DNA from: Halomonas elongata
Lineage (GTDB): Bacteria > Pseudomonadota > Gammaproteobacteria > Pseudomonadales > Halomonadaceae
Length of the DNA stretch: 64,000 nucleotides
Direction: 5' to 3'
Assembly (NCBI RefSeq): GCF_029081005.1
Contig: NZ_JAJQTQ010000004.1
Span: forward strand, 1 to 64,000
Shown here: positions 7,213 to 62,467 of the stretch, one piece after another
Layout: each line of letters opens with the position of its first letter
How positions within the stretch are numbered: the stretch's first letter is position 1
Position numbers and translations under genes: made by a program
The notes under the pieces: model-generated
What the model was told of the DNA's origin: nothing
Database searches by the model: none
What the model saw: only the letters and a program-made list of their open reading frames with translations

Positions 7213-9576
7213 ATGCCGATGCGGAGTCTCCGACGACTGTGCCGAGAGGGTATCTGCCTGTGGTGGTTGGTCATGCCGCCGCTCGTCGAGGGCCAGGACC
7301 TGCCACCGCCGCCGGCCGCCGATGCCGCCCTGGAACGAGAGACCCCGCTGCACCTGGAACTGGTGCTCAACCAACGACCGACCGGACGGGTGGTCGCGGT
7401 GACTCGCCGTGGGACGGGGCTACTGATCGCGCCGGAGACGCTCGGTGCGATCAGACTGCCCGAGCAGCTGACGTCGGCGGAGCGCCTCGACCTGACACGG
7501 CTCGAATCGGTCGAGGCGCACTATGATGCGCCGCACCAGCGGCTGGAAGTGACGGTGCCTGCGGCATGGCTGCCTCGACAGCAGTTGGGCGGTCGGCGGG
7601 GGCGCGCGTCCTCCGAAGCGCTCAGCAGCCCCGGTGCACTGGTCAATTACGACCTGCATGTCAGCGAGGCGCGCCGCGGCACCACACGTGCTTCGCTATG
7701 GCATGAGGCTCGGCTGTTCGGACTGGGAGGCAGCTGGCGCAGTACCGGTGCCTGGCGCGAGCGGCTGGGATCGGCATCCGGCGACGCGGTCGACGAATCA
7801 GCCTATGTCCGCTTCGACACGACCTGGCGCCACGATGATCAGCGGCGCTTGTTGAGCTACGAGGCAGGGGATGTCGTCACTCGCCCCCTGAGCTGGACGC
7901 GGGCCGTGCGGCTGGGGGGCGTGCAGGTGTCGCGCGATTTCGCGATCCGCCCGGACCTGATCACCTATCCGTTGCCGAGCTTCTCCGGCGAGGCCGAGGT
8001 GCCCACCACCCTGGACCTGTTCGTCAATGGCAATCGGGTCGAGCGTCGTGAGCTCGAGCCCGGCCCCTTCACGCTGTCTGATGTGCCGAGCATCAACGGG
8101 GCCGGCGAGGCGAGACTGGTGACCGAGGATATCCAGGGACGTCGTCAGGTCAGGACCCTGCCCTTCTATGTGACCAATGAGCTGCTCAAGCCGGGGCTGG
8201 CCAGTTTCAGTGCCGGTGCCGGTGCCCTGCGGCGAGGCTATGGACAGCGCAGTTTCGACTACGGCGAAGCGGCGGTCAGTGCCTCTCAGCGCATCGGGAT
8301 CACCGAGACGCTGACGCTCGGTGGACACGCCGAACTGGCCGACTCCCTGACCCTGGGCGGTGCGGGCGTGACCCTCGGGCTCTGGCGTGCCGGCACCCTG
8401 GCGTTGGCGTATCAACACGCGGAGGGGGAGTTCGGCAAAGGGGCGGCCCATAGCCTGGGGTATCAGTATCGAGGCCGGCACCTCAGTCTCGGCGCTCGGC
8501 ATGAACGCCGGGAGGCGGGGTTCGCCGATCTGTCCGATGTCGTGGCTCGCCAGGCCCCCGAGCGTGCCCGCACGCGGACGCAGGTGACCGCTGGCGCCTC
8601 GCTGGGTGACTGGGGCAATGTCGCGGCCGGTTACTTCGAGGTCGATGACGGTGTGTCGACCCGGTTGCTGAACCTGTCCTATCAGCGTCCGCTGTGGCGC
8701 AAGGCACATCTGTCGCTGAGCGCCAACCGTGAGATCGGCGGGGATTGGGGCGGGCTCTTGCAGGTCACGCTAGCCCTCGGCCATGGCCAGGGTGTCGCGA
8801 GTGCCGGCATCCAGCACGATGCGGATGGCGAGCCGGCCCAGCAGCTGCAGTACTCGCGTGCCGCACCGCTGGAGGGTGGCTGGGGCTGGGACCTTGGGGT
8901 ACGCCGCCGTGAAGGCCAGGCGATCTATCGCCAGGTGGATGTCCGCCGCCGCGGTGACAGGGCCACCTGGCGGCTGGGGATGCAGGGGACCGGAGAGGAC
9001 GACACCTATTTCGGCGGTCTGAGCGGCTCGGCTGTCTTCATGGCCAGACGCGGCTTTCTAGCCAACGAGGTCAACGACAGTTTCGTGGTGGTGTCCACCG
9101 ATGGCGAGGCCGATGTGCCGGTGCGCTACGAGAACCAGACGGTCGGACGCACCGATGAGGAGGGTTACCTGCTGGTGCCCTGGGGGACGGCCTATTATCC
9201 CGGCAAGTATGAGATCGACCCACTCGCACTGCCCGCCGAGGTGGCGACACCGGAGGTCGAGCGACGCGTGGCCGTCGCGTCGCGTAGCGGCTATCTACTG
9301 TCGTTCGAGCTGCCGCGTCGCACGTCCGTCAGCCTGCGCCTGGTGGATGTCGATGGCGAGGAGCTTCCGCTCGGTGCGAGGGTGCACGCATCGAATGGCG
9401 AGCATGCGGTGGTTGGCTGGGACGGCATGACCTATCTCGAGACGGTATCGGCGGGAATGCGCCTGCGCGTGGCGCTGCCGGATGGTCGCCAGTGCCTGGC
9501 GACACCGTCGTTGCCCGATGATGCGGAGGGGCGCCTGGATCTGGCGCCCGTGACCTGCCATGACGAGGAGACGTGA
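7213..9576 (+). CDS. Outer-membrane usher of the chaperone-usher pilus
   Basis: A 787-residue usher (FimD/PapC/CsuD superfamily) that forms the outer-membrane pore and assembly platform. After a signal-like segment (about residues 1-26) comes an N-terminal chaperone-binding domain, then a 24-strand barrel region with typical motifs (DLFVNGNRVERRELEPGPF, LPFYVTNELLKPG), an interrupting plug and two C-terminal domains. The start is uncertain: 7213 and 7219 both give a plausible signal peptide, and the frame is open back to 7123 inside the chaperone gene. The gene ends overlapping the start of the tip adhesin gene by one base. Confidence 0.88.
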   Translation: MPMRSLRRLCREGICLWWLVMPPLVEGQDLPPPPAADAALERETPLHLELVLNQRPTGRVVAVTRRGTGLLIAPETLGAIRLPEQLTSAERLDLTRLESVEAHYDAPHQRLEVTVPAAWLPRQQLGGRRGRASSEALSSPGALVNYDLHVSEARRGTTRASLWHEARLFGLGGSWRSTGAWRERLGSASGDAVDESAYVRFDTTWRHDDQRRLLSYEAGDVVTRPLSWTRAVRLGGVQVSRDFAIRPDLITYPLPSFSGEAEVPTTLDLFVNGNRVERRELEPGPFTLSDVPSINGAGEARLVTEDIQGRRQVRTLPFYVTNELLKPGLASFSAGAGALRRGYGQRSFDYGEAAVSASQRIGITETLTLGGHAELADSLTLGGAGVTLGLWRAGTLALAYQHAEGEFGKGAAHSLGYQYRGRHLSLGARHERREAGFADLSDVVARQAPERARTRTQVTAGASLGDWGNVAAGYFEVDDGVSTRLLNLSYQRPLWRKAHLSLSANREIGGDWGGLLQVTLALGHGQGVASAGIQHDADGEPAQQLQYSRAAPLEGGWGWDLGVRRREGQAIYRQVDVRRRGDRATWRLGMQGTGEDDTYFGGLSGSAVFMARRGFLANEVNDSFVVVSTDGEADVPVRYENQTVGRTDEEGYLLVPWGTAYYPGKYEIDPLALPAEVATPEVERRVAVASRSGYLLSFELPRRTSVSLRLVDVDGEELPLGARVHASNGEHAVVGWDGMTYLETVSAGMRLRVALPDGRQCLATPSLPDDAEGRLDLAPVTCHDEET

Positions 9577-10580
9577 TGGGGACCTTCATCAACCCTGCCT
9601 GGCGGGGGAGCATTACCCTCTTCCTGCTGCTGGTCGTGGCGTTCGGTGCGACCTCCGCCCGAGCCTGCGATGTGGTGGCGCCGAATCCATTGGCGAGTTT
9701 CGGTAACGTGAGCTCGCTGACGGTGGCCAGCAGTGTCCAGCAGACATCGGCGCAGCCCAACGCCGGTGTGGAGTGCTCGGCACCGTTGCTGTCGGTACTC
9801 GATACCGACTACGTGAATGCAACGCTCTCCAGCGCCAGTGGCGGTCAGCTCGTGGCACCCACGGGGGATGCCATCGACTATGACATCTTTGCCGATCCCG
9901 GCGGTCAGGTGCCGCTGACGCTGGGCACCACCTACGATTACTACAACACCACCCTGCTGGATCTGCTCGGCCTGCTGGGGAGCAATGGCCCGATCGAGCT
10001 GCCGATGTATTACCGCACTCTGCCGGGCTCCGCCGGCAATGTCGCCGCCGGTCTCTATACCGATACCCTGACCGTCAGCTGGAATTGGTCCGTCTGCGAG
10101 GGACTCGGCATCGGGGGGCTCTGCCTCGGCCGGGACAACGGGAGCGGCACCAGCACCATCACCCTGCAGCTCGAGGTCCTGCCGGACTGCGTGATCGACG
10201 CCTCCGACCTGGATTTCGGCTCAGCGCCGCTGGTGGCGGGGTTCAGCCCGGTGACCCGGACGCTCTCGGTGCGCTGCACCAAGGGGCAGGCCTACAGCGT
10301 GGGGTTGAGCGATGGCCAGCATGCCGCCTCCGGCCAGCGGCGCATGGCGTCCTCGGGCGAGTATCTACGCTATGAGCTCTACAAGGGGGCCAGCGGGCTG
10401 TCACGCTGGGGAAGCCAGGGGGCGGAGCGACGCGATTCGACCCAGGCGGACAGTGCGCCGGGCAACCATGACGGCGTGACCGCCCAGGGATTCATCTATC
10501 GCGGCATTATCGACGAGAATCAGCCGACGCCATCGGCCGGCGTCTATACGGATTCGGTCGTCGTGGAGGTGGCGTTCTAG
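9576..10580 (+). CDS. Two-domain SCPU tip adhesin (CsuE-like)
   Basis: A 334-residue secreted protein with a signal peptide ending near TSARA and two successive SCPU domains. The first starts around ACDVVAPNPLASFGN, the second around DCVIDASDLDFGSAP. A two-domain SCPU protein encoded last in the operon is the layout of CsuE, the pilus tip adhesin. The N-terminal domain would contact a surface and the C-terminal domain connects to the shaft. The ATG at 9576 overlaps the usher stop codon. A Gly-rich link (GLGIGGLCLGRDNGSG) joins the domains. Confidence 0.83.
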   Translation: MGTFINPAWRGSITLFLLLVVAFGATSARACDVVAPNPLASFGNVSSLTVASSVQQTSAQPNAGVECSAPLLSVLDTDYVNATLSSASGGQLVAPTGDAIDYDIFADPGGQVPLTLGTTYDYYNTTLLDLLGLLGSNGPIELPMYYRTLPGSAGNVAAGLYTDTLTVSWNWSVCEGLGIGGLCLGRDNGSGTSTITLQLEVLPDCVIDASDLDFGSAPLVAGFSPVTRTLSVRCTKGQAYSVGLSDGQHAASGQRRMASSGEYLRYELYKGASGLSRWGSQGAERRDSTQADSAPGNHDGVTAQGFIYRGIIDENQPTPSAGVYTDSVVVEVAF

Positions 10581-60243: not shown

Positions 60244-60264
60244 TTATTGGACCGAGCATTCAAT

Positions 60265-61149
60265 ATGGCTGAAGTCTTGTCGGACTCGCTGGATCTCGAG
60301 GCGCTGCGCAGCTTCGTGGCGGTCGTGCGCTTGGGTAGCCTGGCCGCGGCGGCCGAGCAACGCCATCGCACCGTCAGCGCGTTGAGCATGCAGATCAAGC
60401 GACTGGAGGCGCGACTGGATACCACGCTGTTGATACGCGGTGCACGAGGCGTGAGCCCGACCCCCAATGGCGAGGCCTTGCTGGGTGAAGCACGGGAGCT
60501 GTTGCGTCGGCACGATGGCCTGGTGGCAAGGATCAGTGGGCGGGGACTGAGCGGGCAGGTGCGTTTCGGCATGCCGGAAGATTACGCCAGTCGCCTGGTC
60601 GGGCGTCTGCTGCCGGATTTCCTGGCGCGGCATCCGGACGTGGTCATGGAAGCGGTCACGGCACCCAGCGGCGAGCTGGCGCGTCGCCTCGAGAGGGGGG
60701 AACTGTCACTGATCGTGGCCCTGGACCGTCCCCATCGGCTCAGCGGCGGCGAGCCGCTGTGGCGCTCCACGCCGGTCTGGGCCGGGGCCCGGGAACTCGT
60801 GTTGACGGCGGATCATCCCTTGCCATTGGCGCTGCATCCCGAGGATTGTCCTTACCGCCAGTTGGGCGTCGAGGCGCTGGGCACGATCGATCGCCCCTGG
60901 CACGCGGTCTTCACCAGTACCAGTATCCATGCGGTGGAAACCGCGGTGGAGTCGGGGCTGGCGGTGAGCATTCTCGAGCGTGATCGCCTGACGCCGGCCA
61001 TGAGGGAGCTCGGTGCAGCGGAAGGCCTGCCCGTGCTGCGGGGCTGCGAGGCACAGCTGCACTACGGGCGCCGGGTCTCCGCCGCGTCCTGGCCGGCGGT
61101 GGAAGCGCTGGGCGAACTGGTCAAGCGCCAGCTCGGGCAGCGGGAATGA
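60265..61149 (+). CDS. LysR-type regulator
   Basis: A 294-residue LysR-family regulator with HTH in residues 5-65 (LDLEALRSFVAVVRLGSL and SALSMQIKRLEARL) and an effector domain from about 90. It is divergent from the EamA exporter and a dyad sits between them, so it probably controls export of its inducer. The ATG at 60265 has a weak Shine-Dalgarno. Confidence 0.85.
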   Translation: MAEVLSDSLDLEALRSFVAVVRLGSLAAAAEQRHRTVSALSMQIKRLEARLDTTLLIRGARGVSPTPNGEALLGEARELLRRHDGLVARISGRGLSGQVRFGMPEDYASRLVGRLLPDFLARHPDVVMEAVTAPSGELARRLERGELSLIVALDRPHRLSGGEPLWRSTPVWAGARELVLTADHPLPLALHPEDCPYRQLGVEALGTIDRPWHAVFTSTSIHAVETAVESGLAVSILERDRLTPAMRELGAAEGLPVLRGCEAQLHYGRRVSAASWPAVEALGELVKRQLGQRE

Positions 61150-61182
61150 CGATAGTTAGAGGGCTGTGAAAGGCGTGGGACC

Positions 61183-61214
61183 AAAAAAAAGAAAGCCGCC
61201 CTGGGCGGGGCGGC
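61183..61214 (-). terminator. Intrinsic terminator of the small RNA candidate
   Basis: A 7-bp perfect G/C stem (GCCGCCC at 61195-61201 with GGGCGGC at 61208-61214) followed on the minus strand by TTTCTTTTTTTT. Confidence 0.88.
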
Positions 61215-61304
61215 AAAAGACCGTGACTAGCAATGAGGAGGAGAAACCTGGGCAAGAAACTGGCAGGAACCTTGCCCAGGCATGGCGCCTCATCAACGCC
61301 ATGG
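61183..61304 (-). ncRNA. Candidate Fur-regulated small RNA (RyhB/PrrF-like layout)
   Basis: Predicted transcript of about 120 bases on the minus strand. From its 5' end: a 7-bp hairpin (CATGGCG at 61281-61287 with CGCCATG at 61297-61303), a 10-bp hairpin (CCTGGGCAAG at 61247-61256 with CTTGCCCAGG at 61271-61280), a single-stranded CTCCTCCTCATTG stretch complementary to Shine-Dalgarno sequences, and an intrinsic terminator. Its promoter overlaps a Fur-box-like sequence. It lies downstream of an AEC carrier gene; a 3'-UTR-derived role is the main alternative. The overlapping 60-codon frame begins inside the promoter and has no ribosome-binding site. Confidence 0.6.
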
Positions 61305-61310
61305 GTGTAG

Positions 61311-61338
61311 AGTAAATCATTCTCATTTGTTCCGTCAA
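61311..61338 (-). promoter_or_regulatory. Sigma70 promoter with Fur-box-like spacer
   Basis: On the minus strand TTGACG (61338-61333), 16-base spacer and TTTACT (61316-61311). The spacer and flanks read AAATGAGAATGATTT, close to half of the GATAATGAT Fur consensus. A related AATTCTCGTTTGCGTT copy in inverted order lies just upstream, around 61338-61353. Confidence 0.6.
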
Positions 61339-61383
61339 CGCAAACGAGAATTTTTTTTATTAAGTTTCGGTGGCCGAGCATGA

Positions 61384-62298
61384 TCAGCCGACCAGACGTA
61401 GCCAGAGGGGCAGTGAGGCCATGGCGATCAGGGTCTGGCCGGTAATCAGGGCGGCCATCAGTTCGGCATCGCCTCCGAGCTGGCGGGCCAGAATATAGGC
61501 GGAAGTCGCGGTGGGCAGGGCGGCGAACAACAGGGCGATGTCGCGACTCACCGGATCCAGGTGGAGCACCAGGGATAGGCCGAGCACCAGGGCCGGCATC
61601 AGGATCAACTTGGCCAGGTTGGCGGTCCAGACGCCGGGGTCGAGTCGCAATAGCGCCCGTGGTCGCAGGGCGACGCCCACGGCCACCAGACCGAGCGGCA
61701 AGGCGGCCCGGCCGAGCAGCTCCGTCATGGGAGCGCTCCAGCCGGGCAGGCCGATACCGCTGAGATTCAGGCCGATGCCCAGCAGGCAGGCCAGGATCAG
61801 GGGATTGCGTATCAGGGCGGCAAGGCTGGCGCGCATGCCGCCGGTGCCGAGCGTGCCGGCGGCGATGAAGCTGGCCACGCACAGGACGTTCACGATCGGC
61901 ACCATCAATGCCACGGCCACCGCCGCGACGGTGGCGCCGGCCTCGCCATGCAACGCGGCGGCGCCGGCCACACCGACGTAGGTATTGAAACGCAGCGCAC
62001 CCTGAAACACCGAGGTGAAGGCCGCTGCCGTCAGGCCCAGCCGACGGTTCGCGAGCCAGAGAGCCACGCCGAGCAAGCCCATGGCGCCGAGCAGTGCGAG
62101 GGCCATGCGTCCCACCGGCACTTGCTGAATATCGGCATCGGCCAGGGTCGAGACCAGCATGGCGGGAAACAGCAGGAAATAGATCAGCCGTTCCATCCGC
62201 GGCCAGAAATCTCCTCCCGGCTGGTCGAGACGGCCGAGCAACGCGCCCAGCAGGATCAACAGGAAGAGGGGCCCCAGGGCTCCCGCCACGCCTTCCAT
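61384..62298 (-). CDS. Auxin efflux carrier (AEC)-family transporter
   Basis: A 304-residue membrane protein with about ten helices in two five-helix halves, typical of the bacterial AEC family (bile/arsenite/riboflavin transporter fold). GALLGRLDQPGGDFWPRMERLIYFLLFPAML is the characteristic start. GAGGAGGTG precedes the ATG. Known relatives move malonate, malate or other acids; the substrate here is unknown. Confidence 0.85.
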   Translation of the reverse strand: MEGVAGALGPLFLLILLGALLGRLDQPGGDFWPRMERLIYFLLFPAMLVSTLADADIQQVPVGRMALALLGAMGLLGVALWLANRRLGLTAAAFTSVFQGALRFNTYVGVAGAAALHGEAGATVAAVAVALMVPIVNVLCVASFIAAGTLGTGGMRASLAALIRNPLILACLLGIGLNLSGIGLPGWSAPMTELLGRAALPLGLVAVGVALRPRALLRLDPGVWTANLAKLILMPALVLGLSLVLHLDPVSRDIALLFAALPTATSAYILARQLGGDAELMAALITGQTLIAMASLPLWLRLVG

Positions 62299-62467
62299 GA
62301 CACCTCCTCATTTCCATGGCGGCAATGCCGGATACGCTCGGGAATCGCTTGGATTCGCTGCCGCTGAAGAACTATCTTGCCATCATCGGCGGCGTGACTG
62401 CATCGTCACGCTCGAGCCGGAGACCGATCATGACGCCGGTCTGGCGTCGAGGAGACAGGGAGTAGCC

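Follow-up and report, generated by a model that had tools for sequence, protein, structure and literature searches.

The closest described systems to the locus analysed here are the PrrF1 and PrrF2 RNAs of Pseudomonas (Rfam family RF00444), and, in the portions of the sources available, PrrF of P. aeruginosa is reported to affect sdhCDAB, acnA and acnB (PMC2851614) as well as sodB (PMC13104616). Other RNAs can be likened to the Halomonas RNA by description. For example, ArrF of Azotobacter is presented as an iron-repressed PrrF homologue in the available text (PMC2851614), and RyhB of Enterobacteria follows the same logic, being described there as Fur-regulated and as binding target transcripts that encode superoxide dismutase and enzymes of the TCA cycle (PMC7377471, PMC2851614). 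NrrF of Neisseria is described as an iron-starvation small RNA tied to sdhC, and so is BrrF of Burkholderia, which differs in having no Fur box of its own and, within the available part of that account, is reported only from Burkholderiales (PMC7377471). Halomonas is used in biotechnology, and P. aeruginosa PrrF has already served as a synthetic scaffold in this host, according to the accessible text of three reports (PMC12164125, PMC13414033, PMC13101641), and no description of a native PrrF in this genus was found in the literature searched, most subscription journals lying outside the scope of that search.

A stretch of 64,000 nucleotides of Halomonas elongata DNA (the window) probably carries on its minus strand a short gene for a PrrF-like iron-starvation regulatory RNA. 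Judged by all comparative tests this is a real gene, and its product is very likely the PrrF homologue of Halomonas, a small RNA that acts in trans and spares iron, with its expression, iron response and repressive action deduced from sequence comparison. The order of parts proposed in an initial annotation (promoter, two hairpins, core and terminator, on the minus strand) is present with some corrections, and the features are as follows, with the proportions of alignment cells that are paired and the base pairs changed on both sides taken from the covariation analysis described below.

60256 to 61149, plus strand: convergent gene for a LysR-family regulator (Pfam PF00126, PF03466), with a start chosen by us
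61183 to 61302, minus strand: predicted small RNA transcript of ~120 nt, its 5' end placed from the -10 box
61183 to 61214, minus strand: intrinsic terminator, stem 61214-61195 plus U-run (helix 4, 99.4% of cells paired, 6/7 pairs double-changed)
61221 to 61246, minus strand: 26-nt core for pairing, TTTCTCCTCCTCATTGCTAGTCACGG, which aligns with that of PrrF from a Pseudomonas-like genome
61247 to 61280, minus strand: hairpin 2, 11 bp (helices 2 and 3, 94.4% and 78.1% of cells paired, 7/9 pairs double-changed)
61282 to 61302, minus strand: hairpin 1, with loop UUGAUGAG (96.9% of cells paired, double changes in 6/6 modelled pairs)
61309 to 61314, minus strand: -10 box TACTCT (3/6 to TATAAT)
61312 to 61329, minus strand: Fur-box-like spacer CAAATGAGAATGATTTAC with the downstream arm CAAATGAGAAT (61329-61319)
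61333 to 61338, minus strand: -35 box TTGACG, conserved in copies
61341 to 61351, minus strand: ATTCTCGTTTG, the upstream one of the two Fur-type inverted arms, read from the sequence
61384 to 62298, minus strand: upstream neighbour on the same strand, a gene for a Mem_trans (auxin-efflux-type) permease (Pfam PF03547)

Copies of this unit are common among relatives. Searching with the DNA itself gave a match in 35 of 58 genomes, comprising the window's own, 34 of the 36 others of the genus and none of the 21 from other families; the two same-genus genomes without a match are 79% and 85% complete, and the copy in genome G018 is 96% identical to that of the window. A pattern with 23 fixed bases retrieved 116 stretches from a named genome collection, and the 80 of these among the matches listed belong to Halomonas, Vreelandella, Billgrantia and, in one case, Halovibrio. 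Scanning with an expression for the core gave 164 copies, 143 of them unique, which are not independent since some genomes occur in both sets. The copies are held in 138 loci, 24 of which contain two or three on one strand, 183-356 bases apart except at two loci where the distance is about 1330; the window's genome has a single copy. The covariance search for homologues that the initial annotation had proposed as a check was made with a model built from 36 Halomonadaceae copies (R1), which matches 61184-61320 with 135.6 bits (the window being among the sequences from which R1 was built) and found 46 of the 390 genomes of the order, including all 18 of the window's family. Tandem PrrF-like arrays were also observed elsewhere in the order, with five matches at G294:C3 (family f38) and three each at G138:C8 and G401:C9, and two genomes (G292 and G072, loci L341 and L342) have a second PrrF-like locus with the core CTCCTCATCATCAGG, which is without the GCTA.TCACGG half.

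The -35 box TTGACG (61338-61333) is separated by 18 nt from the -10 box TACTCT (61314-61309). No promoter-like site in 61000-61500 emerged from a consensus scan, so support for the promoter is its conservation: a TTGAC-like box followed at 16-18 nt by TAnnnT occurs in 138 of 143 unique copies (many closely related), the -10 box being TACATT in 31 and TATATT in 30. The sigma70 promoter that had been proposed is conserved in its boxes and weak by consensus. Its 'Fur-like spacer' belongs to a pair of inverted arms (61351-61341 and 61329-61319) that flank TTGACG, and 126 of the 143 unique copies have both arms, in degenerate form, in this order. When scored against the E. coli Fur consensus, the window has 12/19 identities (shuffle mean 10.3), which is unexceptional for a single sequence, and the mean over the 143 unique copies is 12.6/19 versus 10.3 for shuffled sequence. 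At two loci (L337 in G025 and L338 in G021) there is a separate second copy in which core and terminator are present and the downstream Fur-type arm, in the -35/-10 interval, is degenerate; such a copy is perhaps a paralogue freed from iron control.

The same conservation bears on whether the spot is a 3' untranslated or terminator region of the permease gene with no small RNA gene of its own. Only 45 bases lie between the end of that gene, which is upstream on the same strand, and the -35 box, and 112 of 158 copies are preceded by a motif like the permease C-terminus; this explanation is nonetheless very improbable, since the promoter is kept in 138 of the 143 unique copies, the unit is repeated on one strand at 24 of 138 loci, and 46 of 158 copies, some of them second tandem copies, have no permease motif upstream. 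On the other side, the initial annotation held that transcription from the convergent LysR gene ends before the small RNA, and that claim finds no support here, no plus-strand terminator having been found in 61000-61500. The sole terminator-like site in this interval (two nested matches, minus strand) is that of the small RNA, with 7 G-C pairs in its stem (61214-61195) followed by the U-run TTTCTTTTTTTT, in agreement with the strong terminator claimed for it.

The interval was also considered as a gene for a short protein, either the 60-aa open frame at 61156-61338, which exists in the window's genome, or a shorter one. This candidate was rejected and its probability is minimal: the 60-aa frame has no Pfam match, the three frames are open over 115 nt in 29, 0 and 23 of 49 representatives with none open in all 49, and substitutions follow base pairing. 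The earlier statement that no conserved open frame is present holds.

Folding and covariation argue for a structured RNA. The 156-nt stretch folds at -56.7 kcal/mol (z -3.35) with none of 200 shuffles equally stable, and both of the hairpins that had been claimed, at 7 and 10 bp, form in this fold, with hairpin 2 having 11 bp here. When 99 matches (96 distinct) were aligned to the covariance model, 93.1% of 2052 cells were in standard pairs, a figure biased towards the structure because the alignment was structure-fitted; the number and spread of the double changes, seen in 19 of 22 pairs, are the stronger part of this evidence. None of 500 shuffles attained any of five measures, and pairing fell to 30.5-46.6% when the partner was shifted by 1-3 columns. 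The hairpins are thus conserved in homologous regions, the absence of which the initial annotation had named as grounds for giving up the proposal. Unsupervised analysis of a MAFFT alignment with RNAalifold recovered only 7 pairs (6 with double changes) because hairpin 2 was misaligned, and this consensus was superseded by a hand-set structure and the covariance model. The alignment took in 36 of the 49 representatives, and across the 36 aligned copies the pairing core is mostly invariant.

The relationship of this RNA to PrrF is less evident from the window than from its relatives. RF00444 matches the locus end to end with 37.7 bits (E 4.5e-5), far below the gathering score of 90, a threshold set by the family's curators, so that it is to be regarded as a homologue and not as a member called by Rfam; at gathering scores an Rfam scan of the whole window gave nothing, RF00444 scans of the order and the class gave no match in the window's own genome, and the RyhB model is absent from the nine Rfam matches to 61100-61420 at E <=10. 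Without the promoter, to which 20 bits are due, the transcript scores 17.6 bits (E 0.44) with RF00444, which then takes third place by bits while four other families have better E-values, the best being ncS54 (19.2 bits, E 0.019, under its own cut-off of 43). Since this transcript-only score is no better than those of several unrelated families, the window alone would not settle homology, and one could suppose an unrelated Fur-controlled small RNA that came to resemble PrrF by convergence on the promoter type, the terminator and a core complementary to Shine-Dalgarno sequences. BrrF of Burkholderia would be a parallel case, an analogue and not a homologue, having, in the available text, no sequence similarity to known Fur-regulated small RNAs, yet similar predicted targets (PMC7377471).

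Searches beyond the window make such convergence improbable. RF00444 found 58 of the 390 genomes of the order at E <=1e-3, of which 17 pass the cut-off and 41 lie below it (sub-threshold matches as scored); a class-wide search matched 2 of 369 genomes, each belonging to the window's order, its sensitivity being limited since it also passed over the genome of the window. The 17 genomes above the gathering score all fall in one family, f21, which is for this reason inferred to be Pseudomonadaceae. In the reciprocal direction R1 detected 7 of these 17 at E 5e-8 to 2.4e-7 and, with the strict filters applied there, missed the other 10, an incomplete recovery that would also fit convergence, but at one f21 locus from which the promoter had been removed R1 still scored 30.2 bits (E 1.2e-9 for the 234 bases searched, a rough value given the short calibration). 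In addition, nine genomes from other genera of the window's family have RF00444 scores of 50.6-65.2 bits, and 9 of 11 relatives' loci rescanned with RF00444 match at E <=0.01, the other 2 not matching. The core in other genera, CTCCTCATCAAGCTAGTCACGG or TCTCCTCATCAAGCTAGTCACGG, is intermediate between the Halomonas form and the Pseudomonas-like TCTCCTCATCAGGCTAATCACGG, and TCA-GCTA-TCACGG is common to these graded intermediates in other genera and families. The reciprocal R1 matches, the RF00444 scores in other genera and the intermediate cores together settle homology, and on profile and intermediates the minus-strand RNA is a divergent PrrF homologue whose transcript is homologous beyond the promoter.

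As a PrrF homologue, the Halomonas RNA shares with PrrF1 and PrrF2 the order of parts (two hairpins, core and terminator behind a promoter with a Fur-box-like spacer), which also speaks against convergence, as well as the core TCTCC..TCA..GCTA.TCACGG, the tandem copies that occur in some relatives, and complementarity to the starts of sdhC and acnA and, less strongly, sodB. It differs in that the Halomonas core is shortened, with CATTGC for CATCAGGC, in that the hairpin 1 loop is UUGAUGAG where PrrF has the CGCGAG type, and in its score of 37.7 bits against a gathering score of 90, its single copy in this genome and its position beside a permease gene.

Candidate target genes were picked from known PrrF and RyhB targets, sod and sdh first and aconitases once these two had been looked at, with gene starts called crudely by script and with superoxide dismutase types and target gene names that we presume from protein sequence. 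Among Sdh_cyt places, 14 sdhC of 28 were read and, in a later set, 18 sdhC of 38; 19 of 25 superoxide dismutase places (9 sodB-type, 10 sodA-type) and 30 loci of 36 aconitase-family places, eight of them acnB stretches, were scored. The sdhC start region is CCGTGAATAGCAA, with a GTG start codon, in 14 of 14 Halomonas genomes, and 12 of 13 positions complement the core of the window (TTGCTAGTCACGG); of 18 further genomes, 13 carry CCGTGAATAGC without a change and all retain CCGTGAA, a conservation that may be partly coding. A pattern scan of the window's genome found CCGTGAMTAGCAA exactly only at the small RNA locus and at sdhC, and allowing up to one mismatch gave 4 sites versus 11 for a reversed control. 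One of the one-mismatch sites falls within a urease gene region and seems to be on the other strand, and another lies just before the likely start of a membrane-protein open frame that we take to be YeiH-like.

The acnA start in the window's genome and in G014 reads CCGTGAC-AGGAGGA-TAGCAATGAG, so that the halves of a core complement flank the Shine-Dalgarno sequence; across 8 genomes CCGTGAC is present in 5 and the full second half in 2. The acnB ribosome-binding site contains CAATGAGGG in 7 of 8 genomes (the start in the eighth, G031, was not resolved), and the Fe-type sodB is complementary at 18 of 20 positions in G025 and less so in the other 8 scored. Six loci of a third aconitase type have no notable complementarity.

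RNAduplex energies did not set sdhC apart from background, although sodB of G025 stood out (0/47), and complementarity scores with shuffled-core controls were adopted for this reason. With a gapped score, acnA was equalled by 0, sdhC by 1, sodB by 15 and acnB by 90 of 212 background starts, and the controls sodA and leuC by 52 and 42; with an ungapped score the background was as good in 0.9% of cases for sdhC, 3.3% for acnA and for sodA, 12.7% for sodB and for leuC, and 14.6% for acnB. When sdhC, acnA, sodB and acnB were taken jointly, shuffled cores (mononucleotide shuffles) did as well in none of 400 trials by the gapped score and in one of 400 by the ungapped score, compared with 40 and 8 of 400 for the control pair of sodA and leuC. 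Since leuC encodes an Fe-S enzyme it is not a clean control, and it may itself be a target. The best background start (38.3, versus 38.6 for acnA) belongs to a spore-coat-U-domain gene at 9531-9605 of the window (plus strand) and is probably a chance match. Complementarity of the core to the starts of sdh, aconitase and sodB genes, as known for PrrF, is therefore found here with controls that are not wholly clean, and these background and shuffled-core scores grade the predicted targets as well supported for sdhC and acnA, plausible for sodB and weak for acnB.

Two further observations were made at gene starts. The ribosome-binding site of the permease gene (62303-62312, minus strand) contains AATGAGGAGG, which complements part of the core perfectly, a match that may be due to chance. 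At loci L189, L185 and L188, a sequence resembling a Fur box, TGATAATCATTTT, lies upstream of a second superoxide dismutase gene, presumably of the sodA type; the pattern looks as if Fur represses the sodA-type gene while the small RNA spares iron on the other.

PrrF homology, together with complementarity to the starts of classical PrrF targets, agrees with the Fur-regulated, RyhB- or PrrF-like role initially suggested, and the promoter arms, homology and targets fit a Fur-repressed, Hfq-assisted RNA that occludes the starts of iron-enzyme genes. The window's genome encodes Hfq and two Fur-family proteins. In the presence of iron, Fur-Fe2+ would bind the inverted arms over the promoter and block transcription, and in its absence the RNA of ~120 nt would be made. 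Its core, presumably helped by Hfq, would pair with translation starts of iron-enzyme mRNAs, at the GTG start codon of sdhC, at the start and Shine-Dalgarno region of acnA and, less strongly, at sodB and acnB. By analogy with PrrF and RyhB, translation would be blocked and the mRNAs marked for decay, so that iron is saved.

The core had been described as an accessible stretch complementary to Shine-Dalgarno sequences, and the complementarity is present, but the predicted minimum-energy fold of the 120-nt transcript has part of the core paired with hairpin 1, whose loop UUGAUGAG is complementary to core CUCAUUG. For the window the fold with an open core lies 5.5 kcal/mol above this minimum (-46.1 vs -51.6 kcal/mol), and over 143 unique copies the mean advantage of the minimum-energy fold is 4.9 kcal/mol. 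This pairing may come from modelling the RNA without Hfq, as an artefact, or it may be a derived lock with a regulatory role. We regard it as unlikely, though worth stating, that PrrF acquired an internal lock in much of the Halomonas branch, by which the RNA passes between a closed inactive form and an open form held by Hfq; a lock would not be universal, because the loop differs in some copies (e.g. L011 and L079). If the lock were real, folding as well as Fur would regulate PrrF, perhaps with salt or temperature in these halophiles.

RF00444 does not call the PrrF-like RNA of Halomonas, of which near copies are frequent in the genus and its relatives. That only 17 of the 58 genomes of the order with an RF00444 match pass the cut-off suggests that the family threshold misses PrrF outside the Pseudomonas-like family. 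For Halomonas itself, the finding would add what is probably a native RNA for sparing iron, belonging to the same family as the synthetic scaffold already in use in this host, and an introduced PrrF scaffold could interfere with the native RNA.
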